DNA of 64,000 nt from Chlorella sorokiniana (Eukaryota; Chlorophyta; Trebouxiophyceae; Chlorellales; Chlorellaceae). Position numbers and translations under genes: made by a program. The notes under the pieces are model-generated. The model did not search any database, had not been told where the DNA came from, and was given only the letters and a program-made list of their open reading frames with translations. Location of the stretch: positions 3,081,001 through 3,145,000 of the forward strand of contig CP084619.1 in assembly GCA_025917655.1 (NCBI GenBank), given 5' to 3'. Shown here piece after piece: positions 5,517 through 20,865 of the stretch. Numbering within the stretch: the stretch's first letter is position 1; every line of letters begins with the position of its first letter.

Positions 5517-6136
<620 letters not shown>

Positions 6137-6171
6137 GCCCATCCCTGTTGCAGCCGAAGCCAACAGACAGG
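6137..6171 (-). repeat. 35-bp scrap of LINE-B 3' UTR
   Basis: This stretch is identical to part of the LINE-B 3' UTR repeat (for example near 14378-14412), starting gcccatccctgttgcag. It sits exactly between the (CAA)n tract and the end of the copia gag sequence. It is probably the remnant of a very short LINE-B insertion whose tail became or abuts the microsatellite. Confidence 0.75.
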
Positions 6172-7035
6172 CCGTTGTGTTGCCGCCCTACCTGCTCGTC
6201 GTGCTGTCGCTTGCGGCATTCTCGTTTGTAATGCCCTTTCTTGCCGCAGTAGAAGCATGTCCGCTCCTCTTGCTGCTGCGGTCTGCCGTGTGTGGCGTTG
6301 CGGTCCCTGTTGCCGCTGCTGAAGCTGTGCTTCTTGTTGAACCTGCCGTTCTTCTTGGCAAATAGCGCTGCTGCTGCGCTGCTGCGCTCCGGCTGTGCGG
6401 TCTGCTGCTCCACTGTCAGAAGCTTAGGCAGCATGTCGTCAATGCTGAGATCCCGGTCGCTGCTTGTGAGCACCGTGCTGATCATGCCGTAAGCCGGTGG
6501 AAGGCCCGCCAAAAACTGTAAAGCGACTTCCAAGTCCTTTACTTCATCGCCAGCTGCTCGTAGCTGGGTCTGGATCTCCTTGGCCCGTGCTGCATAGACT
6601 GTTAGCGGCTCTGTCGGGCTGAGCTTGAGCTGAGTGAGCTCCCGTCGCAAGATGAGCTTGCGAGCGTTGGTCTTGGCCTCATACGTGGTCTTGAGTGTCT
6701 CCCACGCACTCTTGGCTGTTGCGCACTGTCCCACCGTTGTCAGGTGATGATCCTTCACGTGCAAGATGATCTGCGCCAGTGCCCTCTGGTCCCGATCTGA
6801 GGAGACGGTGTCCTCCGAGATCGCACTCCAAAGTCCCTTGGAGATGAGCAGCGCACGCATGCGAATGCTCCATGTGGCGTAGTTGTCCACGTCCAGGCGT
6901 TCGACGGTGAGCTTGTCCTCCGCTGCCGTCGCCATGATGTACCGCCTGCTTCAGAGGGATGACGAGATGTCCAAAGCGTGTGTGTAGGTGCGCCAAGCAG
7001 AGGTGAAGGATGTGAGCGCCTTAATTCAAGCGTAG

Positions 7036-7052: not shown

Positions 7053-7283
7053 TGTTGAGATGAAGGCGCTCAAGTAGGGCTGGAGGTTACAAGAGGAGGC
7101 TGCCCATGAGAAAAGCTGAAAGGAAAGGATAGAATGGTTCCGAATGGGGGCGAGAGGCCTATTAAGTAGGCCGCCAGGTAGAAAGTCAAAGCATGCACAG
7201 CACTATTTGGTGAGCCCGTAGTGAGCCCCTACACAGGGATTAGGTAAGCCTCTGGTGAGCCCATACACTAGGATTAGGTGAGC

Positions 7284-7450
7284 AATGGAAGCTTCTGGAA
7301 GGAAGTCCGTAGAAGCTTCGAGAAGGTTCGAGAAGCTTCTAGAAGCGGACGCACAGAAGTGTGTAGAAGCTTCCGGAATGTTCTGGAAGTTTCTGGAAGC
7401 TTGTAGAAGAACGCACGGGGAAGCTTCTAGAACGTTCCAAAGAGGTCGCT
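7284..7450 (-). promoter_or_regulatory. Heat-shock-element array in the minus-strand copia LTR
   Basis: Dense alternating GAA and TTC triplets at 5-bp spacing (gaagcttctagaagc, gaagcttccggaatgttc and similar blocks), the consensus binding site for heat-shock transcription factor trimers. It is the counterpart of the array at 11911-12060 in the plus-strand LTR. The two arrays are similar but not identical in sequence. Confidence 0.7.
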
Positions 7451-7741
7451 AGATGAAAGGCAGGCAAGTAGCGGACTGGACAAGCTTATTTAACAAGAAC
7501 GGCAGGTTCAACAGGAAGCACAGCTTCAGCAGCGGCAACAGGGACCGCAACGCCAATCACGGCAGACCGCAGCAGTCAGAGGAGCGGACATGCTTCTACT
7601 GCGGCAAGAAAGGGCATTACAAGCGAGAATGCCGCAAGCGACAGCACGACGAGCAGGTAGGGCGGCAACACAACGGCTTCCGGCCCGGAGCACAGCAGCC
7701 AAACCAGTTTGGCGGGATCGCTCAGACCGCCCGCTCAGCTG

Positions 7742-7743
<2 letters not shown>

Positions 7744-7778
<35 letters not shown>

Positions 7779-9530
7779 GGTGCTCTTACACTTGAGACGT
7801 GGGGGATCTCAAGAAGCGTAGGTAGGCCGAAGCCACGAAGCATCATGACCGATGAGGCAGCCAAACAGCAGCGCGAACGCGCATGTGACAGCAAGATGGG
7901 GCATGCATTCACGGGGTGGTACGCAGATCTTTTTTCTTTTTGTTTTGTGTGTGTATGTGTGTTCGGTATGTCGCTGTGAAAGCAGATGAAACGCGAGATC
8001 CCGGCAACCGCCAGACTGGGGCAGGCAGCGGCACAACAGGGCAAGGCAAAGAACTGAAAGACCCGAGGCGAGGATGGAGCAACCCACCACGGAAGAGACG
8101 CAAAGGCAACCAGGCCAAGACAAAAAAAAAGGGGGCGTACTGGGACAGGGAGAAGGGGGCGTCCAGGAGGGGGCAGGCTAAGAAAAGGAGGGGAGCCATG
8201 GAAAGGGAAGGTGCAAGCCACTCAGAAAGGGGCGAGGAAATCGAGTGTGGAAGCGTGCTGGAGGGAGCCATGGGAACAGGGACAAGTCAACGCAGGAGCC
8301 GAGCGCTGGGGAACCGTCAGCCAATGGATGCAAAGAGCAAGGACGGGGCAAGCCGAGGGCTGGCGGGCACACGACTACCGACAGCAAGGGCATGTACGCG
8401 CTCCGCAGGTGTGCCTGCCGGCCCGCTAGGACCGGGCGGCGCGGGTGCCGCAAGGCAAGCCGGGCGGGGGCGGCGGACCCCGCCGGCACGTTGCCACACA
8501 CGGTGGCGAACGCCCATCACCCGCCGCGCCACTACACACGCACCTGCCGCCATCGCCGCTGCCGCTGCCGGCCGCCCAACTGCCGCCGCCTGCAAGAATG
8601 GAAGGAGCCCCAGCAGCGCGCATGTAAAGATGAACAGAAGTCAGGCTGTATCGCATGGCCCAAAAGGGAGTGGAAGCAGCACGGTCGAGTATAAAAATAA
8701 CAAGAAGGCCGCTGAGGCCGTGGGAAAGCCCCGCAAAGAAGAGGAGGGCCCCAGCCAGAAAAGGGCAGGGCGGAGAGTTAACCGACGCCCGCGCGTGGTG
8801 CAGCCCGTGCCATTGCTGCCCCGCCGCTTGAAGGGGCTACCCCGCCTTCACGCTCCATACTCAGCAGCGGCCCCGCAGGAGGGAGAGCCGCAGGTGAGGC
8901 TCCACCAGGGCGAGCGGAGGCAGGGGAGAGCTGCAGGCGTGGAGGGGGCAAGGGACCAAGGCAGGACGCAGGGGCAATTGCAGGCACCCGAGACGCAGAA
9001 GGGCCCTCCACTGGTGCGGCCACCGGGTGGGACAGGCTGAAGCGCAACCGCATAGCACCCGCCTCCACAACACAAAGCGCGCCCCTGTGGGTCCACCGCG
9101 CTTTGAACTGGCCCATACGGAGGGAGGTGTCGCGGCCACGGAACCACTCAGCATAGGTGCCATCCAGCCGGCGCATGTTGTGCGTGGCCCGCGCCCAGTC
9201 CCGCTTGATGGCAGCCAGCACCGCTGCTACCGTGGCACCGCACACGCTGGCCGGCGAGATGGGCTGGCCCGCAAGAGTTCGCCGGCCGCGCATCTGCCAC
9301 ACACCGTAGAGGTAAGCGGTGCGCAGGTGTGCCCATACGTGGCGAAGACGGGCGGGTGGGGCCCAAGTGGCATGCTCATCGTGCTGGCACAACGCACGAT
9401 GAGCATGCCCCATCTTGCTGTCACATGCGCGTTCGCGCTGCTGTTTGGCTGCCTCATCGGTCATGATGCTTCGTGGCTTCGGCCTACCTACGCTTCTTGA
9501 GATCCCCCACGTCTCAAGTGTAAGAGCACC

Positions 9531-9565
<35 letters not shown>
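7744..9565. mobile_element. Opposed LINE-C insertions inside copia
   Basis: The block starts with 30 T (7744-7773) and ends with 30 A (9536-9565). From 9400 down to 7744 it is a minus-strand LINE 3' part. The ORF2 C-terminal region reads VWQMRGRRTLAGQPISPASV near 9300 and AAIKRDWARATHNMRRLDG near 9190, followed by a long UTR and the poly(A). From about 9403 to 9565 lies a second, plus-strand 3' tail of the same family. The two tails point away from each other and meet at an inverted repeat at 9369-9409. The long plus-strand open frame over 7916-9040 is antisense to this material and probably not a gene. Confidence 0.75.
9369..9409. repeat. Perfect 16-bp inverted repeat at the junction of opposed LINE tails
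   Basis: Arms 9369-9384 (ggcatgctcatcgtgc) and 9394-9409 are exact reverse complements around a 9-bp spacer. The repeat lies where the minus-strand LINE-C copy ends and the plus-strand tail begins, so it marks the inversion junction and does not look like a transcription terminator. Confidence 0.85.
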
Positions 9566-9567
<2 letters not shown>

Positions 9568-11780
9568 TACACACCGGAGCAGAATGGCGCAGCAGAACGG
9601 CTGAATCGCACCCTGATGGACAAAGTGCGACCCATGCTGGCAACGACAGCAATGCCCAAGTACCTGTGGGCAGAGGCTTTGGCGACGGCCAACTACGTGC
9701 GGAACAGATCACCAGTCAGCGATCGCAGCAAGACACCTTACGAGCTTCTCTTTGGCACGAAGCCAAACGTCGCTCACTTGCGCACCTTTGGAGCACGGGC
9801 CTATGCCGTCACTCCAAAGCAGCTTCGGAACAAACTGGACCGCACCAGCGAGCCTGGCAGATTCATCAGCTATCCACCTGGCACCAAAGGCTACAAGATT
9901 CTCCTGGACGACGGGCGCATCATCATCAGTCGTGATGTGACATTCGTGGAGAACAACAAGACCATCAGCCGCAAGCCAGAAGCAGATCCTCTGACTTCTG
10001 ATGATGAAGACGACCAAGATTCCGTGGGAGAAGATCAGCCTGACGATCAGCCCATGGAGACCGAGCCGACACAGACAGATGACAGCAACCGGCGTACACC
10101 CCCAGCACCTGGGAAGCGCCCCAAACGGTCAGCAACAGACGTCCCAGCAGCAGTATGGAGGGAAGAAGGCTACCAAATCACCGGGCGAAAGCGAAACCTA
10201 GCTGCAGCACACGCAGCCATCATCAAGGAGCCGGCCGACCTAGAAGAAGCACTGGACTCAGAGCAAGCAGAGCTCTGGCAGCAAGCAGCTGATGAAGAGA
10301 TGGAATCTCTGCTGGCAAACATCACCTGGACTCTGGAGAAGATACCAACCGGTATCACACCCATTCCGGTCAAGTGGGTGTTCAAGCTCAAGAGAGATGC
10401 ATCGGGCAACATCGAGCGCTACAAGGCACGCCTAGTGGCCAAGGGATTTCGCCAGAAGGAGGGCATTGACTACGACGAAGTCTTTGCACCTGTCAGCAAG
10501 TACACCTCCCTGCGCACACTACTGGCGCTAGCAGCATCCGAAGACCTGGAGATTCACCAGCTCGACATCAAGACCGCATTCTTGAATGGAGAGCTTGATG
10601 AGGATGTATGGATCGAGCAGCCACCCGGCTACAGCAACGGCGATTCCAGTACGGCATGCCACCTACACAAGTCACTTTATGGACTGAAGCAAGCTCCAAG
10701 AGCCTGGCATACCAAGCTAAAGGAAGAACGGAGGCCCAAAACTACATCTCATCAGCGGCCGATCCAGCTCTCTTCATCAAGAAGGCAGAAGACCCTGTCT
10801 ATCTGCTCACCTACGTGGATGACATCCTGATCATCGCACGAGACCTCAGCTCAGCAAACGAAGCAAAAGCCAAGATACTCTCGGCGTTTGAAGCACGAGA
10901 CATGGGAGGGGCAACCTGTTTTCTTGGAATGGACATCCGCAGAGACAGAGACAATCGCACCATCAGTCTGACGCAGAGCAGACTCATCAGTGATCTGCTG
11001 GAGAAGCACAACATGAAGGAATGCAAGACCCAGACTGTGCCGCTCAGCACAGCGACCAAGCTGACCAAGACCGGCGAAGCATTGGACACCAGCACATACG
11101 GCTACAGTCAGCTGATTGGGAGCCTCATGTATCTATCGGTCTGCACCAGACCAGACATTTCTCAAGCCGTGGGAGCACTGGCTAGACACATGGCGAATCC
11201 GACAACAGCGCATTGGAAAGCAGCCAAAGGAGTTTTGCGCTACATCTCAGGAACAGCAAACTATGCGCTCAGCTTTGGACAGTCGGACTTCAGACTGGAA
11301 GCATACTGCGATGCAGACTACGCAGGCGACTTGGACACACGTCGCTCAACCACCGGCTATGTTTTCACCCTCAGCGGTGGAGCTATCAGCTGGTCAAGCC
11401 GACTCCAGCCAACAGTTGCAGCCTCGACAACTGAAGCCGAGTACATGGCAGCCGCCTCCGCCGTCAAGGAAGCACTGTGGCTACGCAAGCTCTTCTATGA
11501 TCTGGACCTGCACATCACCTGCATCGACATCAAGTCAGACAGCCAATCGGCCATCCACATGCTGAAGAATCCAGTCGTCTCGCTCCGCTCCAAGCACATC
11601 GACGTCATTCACCACTTTGCCCGCGAGCGCCATCCGTGGTGAAGTCAATTTCAGCTACGTTCCCACAGACGCCATGATTGCTGACATCCTGACCAAGCCC
11701 GTGCCCAGCACCAAGTTCAAGGATTGCCGCACGGGTATGGGCATCACCTGAGTGCAGCGGCTGTACAGCCTGCGTGGGAG

Positions 11781-12654
11781 TGTTAAGTGTGGCGGTGCCA
11801 CGTGTCCAGTCTGCACACCCGCCGCACATCTGCCAAAGCCGCCAGCTGGCAGGCGTTACTAGAGATTTTTAGTCCGCTACTTGCCTGCCTTTCATCTAGC
11901 GACCTCTTTGGAACGTTCTAGAAGCTTCCCCGTGCGTTCTTCTACAAGCTTCCAGAAACTTCTAGAACATTCCGGAAGCTTCTACACACTTCTGTGCATC
12001 CGCTTCTAGAAGCTTCTCGAACCTTCTCGAAGCTTCTACAGCCTTCCTTCCAGAAGCTTCCAAATGTTGAGATGTGGCTGAGCCACATGTCCAGCCTGCA
12101 CACCCGCAGCACATCTCCCCAGCTGCCACGTGGCAGACGCTGCTGACGTGGACACCCTTTCGTCATGCATGAGCTTGACCCGCCTAATATGCTCAGACAC
12201 CCTTCGATTATGCTTTCCCACTTTATTCTAAGTTGATTGACCCCCATGCCATGCATTTCTGTGCACCTGAGCCCCGCCGTCATGCCACTACCACAAACAC
12301 TACCCCGCATATGCCGGAATAATGCCAATAGTAGCATTGTGCTGCTCCAGCCTATTTAGCGCCATTCTGCGCCCTCTTTCATACTCTTGCGCCCTTTGTA
12401 ACTACCTCCATCCAACACCAAAGCTCACCTAATCCTGGTGTAGGGGCTCACCAGAGGCTTACCTAATCCTGGTGTAGGGGCTCACTAGGGGCTCACCAAA
12501 TAGTGCTGTGCATGCTTTGACTTTCTACCTGGCGGCCTACTTAATAGGCCTCTCGCCCCCATTCGCAACCATTCCATCCTTTTCTTTCAGCTTTTCTCAT
12601 GGGCAGCCTCCTCCTGTAACCTCCAGCCCTACTTGAGCGCCTTCCATCTCTACA
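11781..12654 (+). repeat. Copia LTR region, apparently two related LTR segments
   Basis: It begins TGTTAAGTGTGG right after a purine tract (tgcgtgggag) at the end of pol and ends ATCTCTACA at 12654, matching the LTR end at 7053 on the other strand. A second LTR-like start, TGTTGAGATGTGGC, lies at 12065 and repeats the first 50 or so bases of the LTR with substitutions (for example CTGCACACCCG and GCACATCT). The minus-strand LTR lacks the segment from about 12064 to 12420. The region therefore probably joins two related LTR subfamilies. Confidence 0.75.
11911..12060 (+). promoter_or_regulatory. Array of perfect heat-shock elements in the copia LTR
   Basis: Four runs of strictly alternating GAA/TTC at 5-bp spacing: 11911-11928 (4 units), 11950-11982 (7 units), 12004-12036 (7 units) and 12048-12060 (3 units), 21 units in total. 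A functional HSE normally needs three. This is what HSF trimers bind. ONSEN/ATCOPIA78 in Arabidopsis is a known copia element activated this way. Direction and activity are inferred from sequence only. Confidence 0.8.
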
Positions 12655-12871: not shown

Positions 12872-13943
12872 TTTTTTTTTTTTTTTTTTTTTTGGGGGTG
12901 CTCTTACACTTGAGACGTGGGGGATCTCAAGAAGCGTAGGTAGGCCGAAGCCACGAAGCATCATGACCGATGAGGCAGCCAAACAGCAGCGCGAACGCGC
13001 ATGTGACAGCAAGATGGGGCATGCAGTCACGGGGGTGGTACGCGGATTTTTTTCTTTTTTGTTTTGTGTGTGTGTGTGTGTTCGGTATGTCGCTGTGAAG
13101 GCAGATGAAACGCGAGATCCCGGCAACCGCCAGACTGGGGCAGGCAGCGGCACAACAGGGCAAGGCAAAGAACTGAAAGACCCGAGGCGAGGATGGAGCA
13201 ACCCACCAGGGAAGAGACGCAAAGGCAACCAGGCCAAGACAAAAAAAAGGGGGGCGTACTGGGACAGGGAGAAGGGGGCGTCCAGGAGGGGGCAGGCTAA
13301 GAAAAGGAGGGGAGCCATGGAAAGGGAAGGTGCAAGCCACTCAGAAAGGGGCGAGGAAATCGAGTGTGGAAGCGTGCTGGAGGGAGCCATGGGAACAGGG
13401 ATAAGTCAACGCAGGAGCCGAGCGCTGGGGAACCGTCAGCCAATGGATGCAAAGAGCAAGGACGGGGCAAGCCGAGGGCTGGCGGGCACACGACTACCGA
13501 CAGCAAGGGCATGTACGCGCTCCGCAGGTGTGCCTGCCGGCCCGCTAGGACCGGCGGCGCGGGTGCCGCAAGGCAAGCCGGGGGGGGGCGGCGGACCCCG
13601 CCGGCACGTTGCCACACACGGTGGCGAACGCCCATCACCCGCCGCGCCACTACACACGCACCTGCCGCCATCGCCGCTGCCGCTGCCGGCCGCCCAACTG
13701 CCGCCGCCTGCAAGAATGGAAGGAGCCCCAGCAGCGCGCATGTAAAGATGAACAGAAGTCAGGCTGTATCGCATGGCCCAAAAGGGAGTGGAAGCAGCAC
13801 GGTCGAGTATGAAAATAACAAGAAGGCCGCTGAGGCCGTGGGAAAGCGCCCCGCAAAGAAGAGGAGGGCCCCAGCCAGAAAAGGGCAGGGCGGAGAGTTA
13901 ACCGACGCCCGCGCGTGGTGCAGCCCGTGCCATTGCTGCCCCG
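12872..13943 (-). mobile_element. LINE-C 3' region with poly(A), second copy of a 1.07-kb repeat
   Basis: It starts with 22 T (12872-12893, the poly(A) tail on the minus strand) and matches 7744-8822 almost base for base, including gt-rich runs and shared open frames. The two copies part at 13943/8822 (after ccattgctgcccc), which fits different 5' truncation points of one LINE family. It probably carries no gene; the long plus-strand open frame is the antisense strand of the UTR and is shared by both copies. Confidence 0.8.
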
Positions 13944-19319: not shown

Positions 19320-20330
19320 AGGTTGTAGGATACCTTCGCAGCCTGGGGTTGGGTCCCTTTGATGGTGGGGAGCCCTGCCATGTCGATGTTGGCAAGGCGT
19401 GCAGCCTCGCTGACGAGGCCTACGTCGAGGGCGTCTTGCGGGGAGCACCATCCCAGCCCAAAGTGCAGTATTACTGCGCTAGTGTGAGGGCGGGCTCATG
19501 CGTGATACGTACTTCCGTCGCCCGCAACCGTACCTGACCGAGGTTGACAGCCGTGCGCGCATGGCCAGCCTGGCCAGGTTCCGCACGGGCTGTCATTGGT
19601 TGCGGGTGGAGACTGGGCGGCATGAGGGGGTGGACAGGCCCAGCCGGGTTTGCCCCCACTGCTCGTTGGGTGCCGTGGGAGGACGAGCATCACATGGTGT
19701 TTGACTGCCCAAAGTATGCCCGCCTGCGAGCCGATTATAGTGAGTGCGTTTTTGGGGTCGGTCAGGGTCCGCCCAGCGGTCCGTTGGCGGGGCGAGGAAC
19801 CTTGGCACAGTTCCTTGAGCAGGATCCCGTGGCAGTGGCTAGCTTTGTGCACCACTGCTACCGTCTGTCGTTGGCTGGAGACGACACCCACAGCAGCGGG
19901 TCTGAGCCCCAGCCCCAGCGCGAGGCGACCCCGGCTTGAGAGGGCCTACGTCGCCGTCGCGGCCCCTGCCAGCCCGTGCCCGGCTTGCGTTGGATTCTTC
20001 CTTGCCTATCCTGACTCTTTCACAGTTTTGCCTTGCCAACATCCTTGTCATCGTGCTTGCGTGCATGGTTGCTTGCCATCCCGCGTGCTTGCTGCATCTT
20101 GCATCTTCACCTCCGCGCGATGGGGGTGCGCGGGCCCGGGCTTTGACTCCCGTGCGCTGCTGGCCTGATGAGTTCCCGGTTTCGAGGGCCAGCCCGTTCC
20201 TGTCAGTTGGCTTCGGCTGCAGCAGGGATGGGCCCGTTTGCGTCTGAGTTGCATGGGCCCTACGCCCCGTCTGCGAGGGACAGTGATTGTCCCGAAGGCA
20301 GACGTTAAACTAGTGTAACATAACATAACA
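19320..20330 (+). mobile_element. LINE-B copy 3, C-terminal half and 3' UTR
   Basis: It starts within the ORF2 C-terminal region (VVGYLRSLGLGPFDGGEP), continues through DTYFRRPQPYLTEVDSRARM and the zinc-finger motif CPHCSLGAV near 19660, then the 3' UTR, and ends in taacataacataaca near 20330. At 19320 it joins LINE-B copy 2 head to head with a few shared bases. It may be the displaced 3' part of copy 0 or an independent insertion. Confidence 0.75.
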
Positions 20331-20865
20331 TGCTTGCTTGCCATCCCGCGTGCTTGCTGCATCTTGCATCTTCACCTCCGCGCGATGGGGATGCGCGGGC
20401 CCGGGCTTTGACTCCCGTGCGCTGCTGGCCTGATGAGTTCCCGGTTTCGAGGGCCAGCCCGTTCCTGTCTGTTGGCTTCGGCTGCAGCAGGGATGGGCCC
20501 GTTTGCGTCTGAGTTGCATGGGCCCTATGCCCCGTCTGCGAGGGACAGTGATTGTCCCGATTGCAGACGTTAAACCAGTGTAACATAACATAACATGCTT
20601 GCTTGCCATCCCGTGTGCTTGCTGCATCATGCATCTTCACCTCGACGCGATGGGGGTCCGCGGGCCCGGGCTTTGACTCCCGCGCGCTGCTGGCCTGATG
20701 AGTTCCCGGTTTCGAGGGCCAGCCCGTTCCTGTCAGTTGGCTTCGGCTGCAACAGGGATGGGCCCGTTTGCGTCTGAGTTGCATGGGCCCTATGCCCCGT
20801 CTGCGAGGGACAGTGATTGTCCCGAAGGCAGACGTTAAGCCAGTGTAACATAACATAACATAACA
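20066..20865 (+). repeat. Tandem array of three ~265-bp LINE-B 3' UTR units
   Basis: Units run about 20066-20330, 20331-20595 and 20596-20865. Each begins tgcttgcttgccatcccg and ends in cagtgtaacataacataaca. They differ by only a few substitutions. The first is the natural 3' UTR of LINE-B copy 3; the others are extra copies. A degenerate tail cagtgtaacacaacataaca follows at 20967-20986. Confidence 0.9.

Follow-up and report, generated by a model that had tools for sequence, protein, structure and literature searches.

Within the 64,000 nucleotides analysed here (the window, C2:3081001-3145000), a copia retrotransposon of a green alga carries in its LTR an array in which 21 GAA/TTC units alternate strictly, one every 5 bp (11911-12060, + strand). 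With a probability of roughly 0.65, we read this array as part of an ONSEN-like LTR promoter driven by heat shock factor (HSF), within a lineage of copia elements that is restricted to putative centromeres; both the binding of HSF and the induction by heat are predicted from the arrangement of the units. Recounting the units gave the same number, the same blocks of 4, 7, 7 and 3 and the same spacing as the sequence-only reading had reported, and the total of GAA/TTC triplets inside the stretch is 25. Since a heat shock element (HSE) comprises at least three alternating nGAAn units spaced by 5 bp, the array is made up of such elements. An array of the same kind had also been announced for the other strand, where we found 21 units in mirrored order (Table 1). 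The eight chains of these two arrays are the only chains of three or more units in the window.

The density of units had been judged far above chance, which is borne out by simulation. In 90 simulated 64-kb windows (Markov orders 1, 2 and 3, 30 each), no chain exceeded three units. When the composition of the array's own 150 bases was used (5,000 simulations each), the longest chain had four units at order 1 and five at order 2. Long chains did arise once an order-3 model had been trained on these bases, with a mean of 13 units in chains of at least three and a maximum of 29, because a model of this order largely memorises the array.

Table 1. Positions of the retrotransposon features in the window and of the internal array at locus L082
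Feature	Position	Strand	Remarks
gag, open, Retrotran_gag_2 and zinc knuckle	6138-6950	-	opposite-strand copy
LTR, subfamily A1, TGTTAAATAAGC...CTCAACA	7053-7495	-	second, opposite-strand copy; carries mirror array
Mirror array	7288-7437	-	chains of 3, 7, 7 and 4; 21 units
gag remnant, zinc-knuckle part	7496-7741	+	+ strand copy; adjoins LTR 7053-7495
Two head-to-head, poly(A)-ended LINE-like 3' ends	7742-9567		at expected site of protease and most of integrase of + copy
Remnant of late integrase, RT and RNase H	9568-11760	+	+ strand copia copy; frame broken
3' LTR, subfamily A2, TGTTAAG...CTCTACA	11781-12654	+	contains array; split by solo LTR
Chains of window array	11911-12060	+	4 (11911-11928), 7 (11950-11982), 7 (12004-12036), 3 (12048-12060)
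Solo LTR of copia family E, 353 bp, TGTTGAG...CAACA	12065-12417	+	CCAAA on either flank
Array D, CATAAAAGG and ORF3	L082:1063-1860 (C4 about 2278562-2279359)	-

The array is a recurrent feature of its family. With all candidates scored, the array stretch occurs at 31 places in the 38.8-Mb genome of 15 contigs, at 71-100% identity. As the sequence-only reading had proposed, the other copies were inspected for the spaced units: 30 of the 31 places were read and aligned, and 29 of these keep a chain of at least three units, with sums from 21 units down to 3, while one locus (L050) has none. Scans for the chains themselves led to the same elements. Alternating chains of five units gave 77 matches genome-wide (both strands, overlapping matches counted) against none in the reversed control, and all 77 fall in clusters of retrotransposons. 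Four-unit chains that start with GAA occur at 72 places, compared to two in the control; among the 50 of these places that were listed, all lie in clusters on C2, C3 and C4. Two further scans for four-unit variants without rightward extension returned 57 and 22 rows, compared to 3 and 1 in the respective controls, and each of the 79 rows is in a cluster. A four-unit chain that stops short of five units and has the tested base next to it at both ends could be missed by these scans. Within this coverage, the genome's long HSE chains are part of these retrotransposons. A parasite holds the longest perfect ones, and none of such length was found in host genes.

Assignment to the copia group, made earlier from the letters of the window, is supported by Pfam families. 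The order gag - integrase - RT with a copia-type RVT_2 domain is seen in L082, and the gag on the - strand of the window matches Retrotran_gag_2. An algal host had been proposed as well, and the best named relatives of pol are indeed from Chlorella and Parachlorella: among the 120 of 781 hits listed, they comprise Chlorella sorokiniana (67% identity, 75% of the query covered), Parachlorella kessleri (59% and 97%) and Chlorella vulgaris (53% and 96%). We therefore regard the host as a member of the Chlorellaceae. The viral contigs contained 113 stretches that fit a pattern for pol relatives, none of which was confirmed. The longest open frame of the array-bearing families has 1042 amino acids. 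Behind the LTR we found TTGGTTATGGGCCCC, a candidate primer binding site, which presumably fits the anticodon arm of initiator tRNA-Met.

By eye, the alignment of 30 loci separates into the subfamilies A, B and C. In A and C, a TATA-like box follows the array within the copia LTR, i.e. these LTRs show an HSE cluster in the promoter region, as is typical of ONSEN-like elements. Subfamily C (L085, LTR about 1593-2064) has a clean TATATAAG that begins 66 bp from the end of the last chain. In subfamily A, the homologous site reads TTAATAGG and follows the last chain by 101-123 bp if the solo LTR and its duplication are excluded. In subfamily B, TTAACAGG is present at the homologous site instead of a TATA box. 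The youngest LTR pair belongs to this subfamily; it has chains of three units at most and TTAACAGG at the TATA position, which counts against an HSF-driven promoter. The pair (L083) consists of two direct LTRs of 489 bp, 99.8% identical and bounded by TGTTGG...CAACA, with flanks (CTTGG/CTTGC) that match at four of five bases; a perfect pair of CCAAA is seen for the related solo LTR of family E. The near identity of its LTRs suggests that this subfamily-B copy either is young and recently moved or was homogenised.

One lineage has a second, internal array. This array D, with chains of 4, 5 and 4 units, follows the stop of pol and precedes CATAAAAGG by 42 bp, upstream of an additional open frame. 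The latter, ORF3, lies between pol and the 3' LTR and ends just inside the LTR; it spans 220 amino acids from stop to stop and about 184 from the first ATG, and a Pfam search of ORF3 gave no match. C4 has three identical copies of array D, with a distance of 5,475 bp between two of them, and C12 has a broken one; likewise, ORF3 is found in three identical copies on C4 and in a copy on C12 that is in three pieces. Although gaps are needed to align array D with A (identity in 86 of 127 columns), both the spacing of the units and the place before the TATA box are kept.

In the window itself, the promoter arrangement is disrupted. That the array lies in a copia LTR, as the sequence-only reading held, is correct for the 3' LTR of the + strand copy. 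This LTR, however, is split by a solo LTR of family E inserted just past the last array unit. As the TATA-like TTAATAGG is found at 12541, the solo LTR stands between the two, and the window array is thus separated from its own TATA-like position. We rejected the possibility that the 353-bp block is a native part of the array LTR, since it is absent from the opposite-strand copy and target duplications are present. The purine-rich GCGTGGGAG precedes the TGTTAAG start of the 3' LTR at 11781. The second LTR is 98% similar to the 3' LTR over the array stretch and had been taken as its partner in the same element (then placed at 7284-7450). Its opposite orientation, a gag of its own and the adjoining gag sequence of the + strand show that it belongs to another, nested copy; strand and gag were also the reasons for rejecting it as the 5' LTR of the + copy. 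The + strand copy lacks protease, most of the integrase and a 5' LTR of its own.

The following course of events is the most likely. In the copia LTR promoter, the array would serve as a series of HSEs within the U3 enhancer region. Upon heat, HSF trimers of the host would bind cooperatively to the GAA/TTC chains, one 7-unit chain being able to accommodate two trimers. Bound HSF would then recruit transcription to the TATA-like site approx. 66-123 bp beyond the last chain. Genomic RNA of the element would start there, be reverse transcribed and be reinserted into the cluster of each chromosome, and such movement may continue to the present day.

The host has a recognisable HSF gene, as judged from its DNA-binding domain. 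A six-frame search of the genome gave one HSF_DNA-bind exon over the Pfam cut-off (one match, two candidates scored). Its frame is HNNFSSFVRQLNTY, and a downstream frame then holds a heptad-like region. Over 36 residues it matches solved HSF domains, with a best E value of 3.9e-10. The HSF found here is presumably of the plant class-A type. Promoters of host HSP genes failed as a positive control. Five upstream stretches had been drawn for 57 HSP70 exon matches, and in the seven HSP70 and HSP20 stretches in total, with start sites unmapped and first exons possibly missed, no GAA/TTC chain was longer than two, which counts against the HSF-driven reading.

An HSF-driven promoter has to be weighed against the view that the array is a palindromic tandem repeat of 10 and 54 bp, which grew by slippage or unequal exchange, has no regulatory role and resembles HSEs incidentally. 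We consider this unlikely, although the array does have tandem periods of 10, 20 and 54 bp, and two 54-bp tandem halves, 74% alike, are each begun by one of the 7-unit chains. Between these two chains (33 bp), differences are found at 6 of 12 spacer sites and at none of 21 triplet sites, i.e. the spacers vary while the lattice stays, which speaks against a mere slippage repeat. The associated P of 8e-4 under random placement is overstated, as the chains were preselected as perfect. Likewise, a promoter position is shared by three LTR subfamilies and is seen again in the divergent array D. On the other hand, viral contigs, in which HSF is not to be expected, contain 15 stretches with chains of 6-10 units, and six of the 15 are perfect decamer repeats. 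As a side observation, three of the viral chains (L100:4004, L109:1103 and L105:2697, with 10, 8 and 7 units) are on contigs that appear phage-like by eye, and those of L100 and L109 fall within open frames.

Weak constraint on the triplets also speaks for a slippage repeat. Parsimony over 25 of the 30 loci (excluding L045, L047, L048, L049 and L050) counted 17 changes each for the 66 triplet sites and the 36 lattice spacers and 55 for the other 84 sites, and the comparison of triplets with spacers gave P = 0.054. In a neutral simulation that started from the window array, ten copies from the 30 loci all had more units than the simulated mean; P was below 0.05 in two of the ten (L031 and L041), and the copies are related to each other. 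Together, these counts are no more than suggestive of selection on the triplets.

The genomic distribution of the family is narrow. All 31 array places lie in one cluster per contig, on 10 of the 15 contigs. All 65 gag matches fall in these clusters too, some of them up to approx. 6 kb outside the range covered by LTR places. Also located there are the 49 matches of a subfamily-C LTR piece and at least 42 places of the 353-bp LTR of family E (40 of 108 candidates scored), the latter on 10 contigs. If cluster places of any kind are considered, 11 of 15 contigs have one, C6 with a single place, and four are without match. The cluster spans add up to 407 kb, about 1% of the genome. One locus per chromosome is the distribution of centromeric retrotransposons, and it is the one seen here. 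In two other Chlorella species, centromeres mapped by CENH3 ChIP are described as consisting largely of transposable elements with prominent copia and LINE families (PMC11005252). Given this composition of validated Chlorella centromeres, the clusters described here are probably centromeres by analogy. On C3, the LTR places at 2047312-2058380 and 2075907-2086977 form pairs 28.6 kb apart; these paired places, which include a near twin of the subfamily-B copy L083, probably reflect a segmental duplication within the cluster.

Family E resides in the same clusters in high copy number and without an array. Its LTR has no GAA/TTC chain longer than one unit, and its first 47 bp are 87% like those of A2. 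At two places of the genome, gag is part of an open frame of 1364 amino acids, which was assigned to family E by position. As E has more LTR places (at least 42 versus 31) and longer frames (1364 versus 1042 amino acids), success does not require an array.

Confinement to clusters raises the alternative that HSF binds the arrays to the benefit of the cluster and not of transposition, with putative centromeres that are HSF-bound and transcribed in heat. We regard this as quite improbable. It would be in line with the finding that five-unit chains without exception, and four-unit chains as far as listed, keep to a single cluster on each contig, and it has a precedent in the HSF1-driven transcription of human pericentric satellite III, where HSF binding and nuclear stress bodies accompany heat (PMC9032817). 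Satellite III, however, is satellite DNA, whereas the sequence here is a retrotransposon promoter, so the likeness is an analogy only. Moreover, the 31 array places are restricted to 10 of 15 contigs, with four contigs lacking any match, which excludes a role as a general centromere part, and the array-free family is at least as common. A more far-reaching proposal, which is speculative and in our view doubtful, starts from the same precedent: long HSE arrays in centromeric retrotransposons would make the centromere clusters HSF-bound and transcribed in heat, so that the alga would have its own, independently arisen equivalent of satellite III; in one lineage, moreover, the internal HSE array with its TATA box would provide the extra ORF with a heat promoter of its own.

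Least probable is a function of the palindromes as hairpins of RNA or single-strand DNA in packaging, dimerisation or strand transfer. Folding of the 157-nt stretch is much stronger than that of shuffled sequences (z = -8.1), but pairing of GAA with TTC follows from composition alone, and in 13 of the 30 copies both-side changes affect 1 of 48 pairs (shuffled mean 1.0) and 90.8% of cells pair versus 90.4% in shuffles, so that RNA structure was rejected as the role of the array because covariation is no greater than in shuffles.

The proposed HSF-responsive LTR promoter has counterparts in land plants. The LTR of ONSEN (ATCOPIA78) is reported to contain a cluster of nGAAn motifs bound by HSFA2, induction being strongest with four adjacent motifs, and among COPIA elements of Brassicaceae induction correlates with the type of HSE (PMC5059998, PMC3907296). 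Like the heat-responsive ONSEN, TERESTRA, COPIA37 and ROMANIAT5 of this plant family as described there, the elements presented here are copia retrotransposons with nGAAn clusters in the LTR. They differ in the number of motifs, which is four in ONSEN and six in TERESTRA according to these sources versus 21 in four chains here, the longest perfect one with seven units. Furthermore, they reside in a green alga, occur in one cluster per contig and have an internal second array before an extra ORF, and their heat response is putative. HSE-bearing copia elements are already known; new are the length of the array, the confinement and the internal second array. If our reading is true, capture of HSF by copia elements extends from land plants to green algae. 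Confinement of the elements to putative centromeres makes it testable, in an easily grown alga, whether heat opens, transcribes or remodels centromeres via HSF.

Other lineages offer partial parallels. In Caenorhabditis elegans, high-density HSE clusters are reported exclusively in Helitrons (PMC6927752), so that the dense HSE clusters of a genome lie within a transposon family, as in our case. According to that report, however, Helitrons are DNA transposons that are spread genome-wide and bound by HSF-1, whereas the algal element is a clustered LTR retrotransposon whose binding by HSF is predicted. The Cryptococcus elements TCN3 and TCN12 are described as LTR retrotransposons with putative HSEs in the LTR (two in TCN3, one in TCN12), with TCN3 copies in a centromere region; their host is a fungus, in which heat-linked movement was measured (PMC12810828). 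Copia-1_Chlorella_NS and Copia-2_Chlorella_SLA04, elements of Chlorella centromeres, resemble our elements in that their copia-rich clusters extend over tens of kb, are found once per chromosome and also contain LINEs; this likeness concerns the described arrangement, and the passages cited here mention no HSEs (PMC11005252). Titles and the beginnings of abstracts, from a literature with few subscription journals, contained no description of HSE arrays in an algal retrotransposon.

The remainder of the window adds some minor observations. The stretch 7742-9567 was considered as a transposon with terminal inverted repeats, which was rejected on account of its poly-T/poly-A ends and because the same end recurs elsewhere in copies of 110-125 bp; both features fit two 3' ends, placed head to head, of a LINE with a poly(A) tail. 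LINE-like sequence of this stretch recurs 5.1 kb downstream (12872-13943) at 97-100% identity. No tRNA was found in the window. A perfect (AAC)n run of 248 bases (5889-6136) is located at the end of the opposite-strand gag frame, and at 20064-20861 a unit of 265 bp is repeated in three tandem copies with 96% matches.
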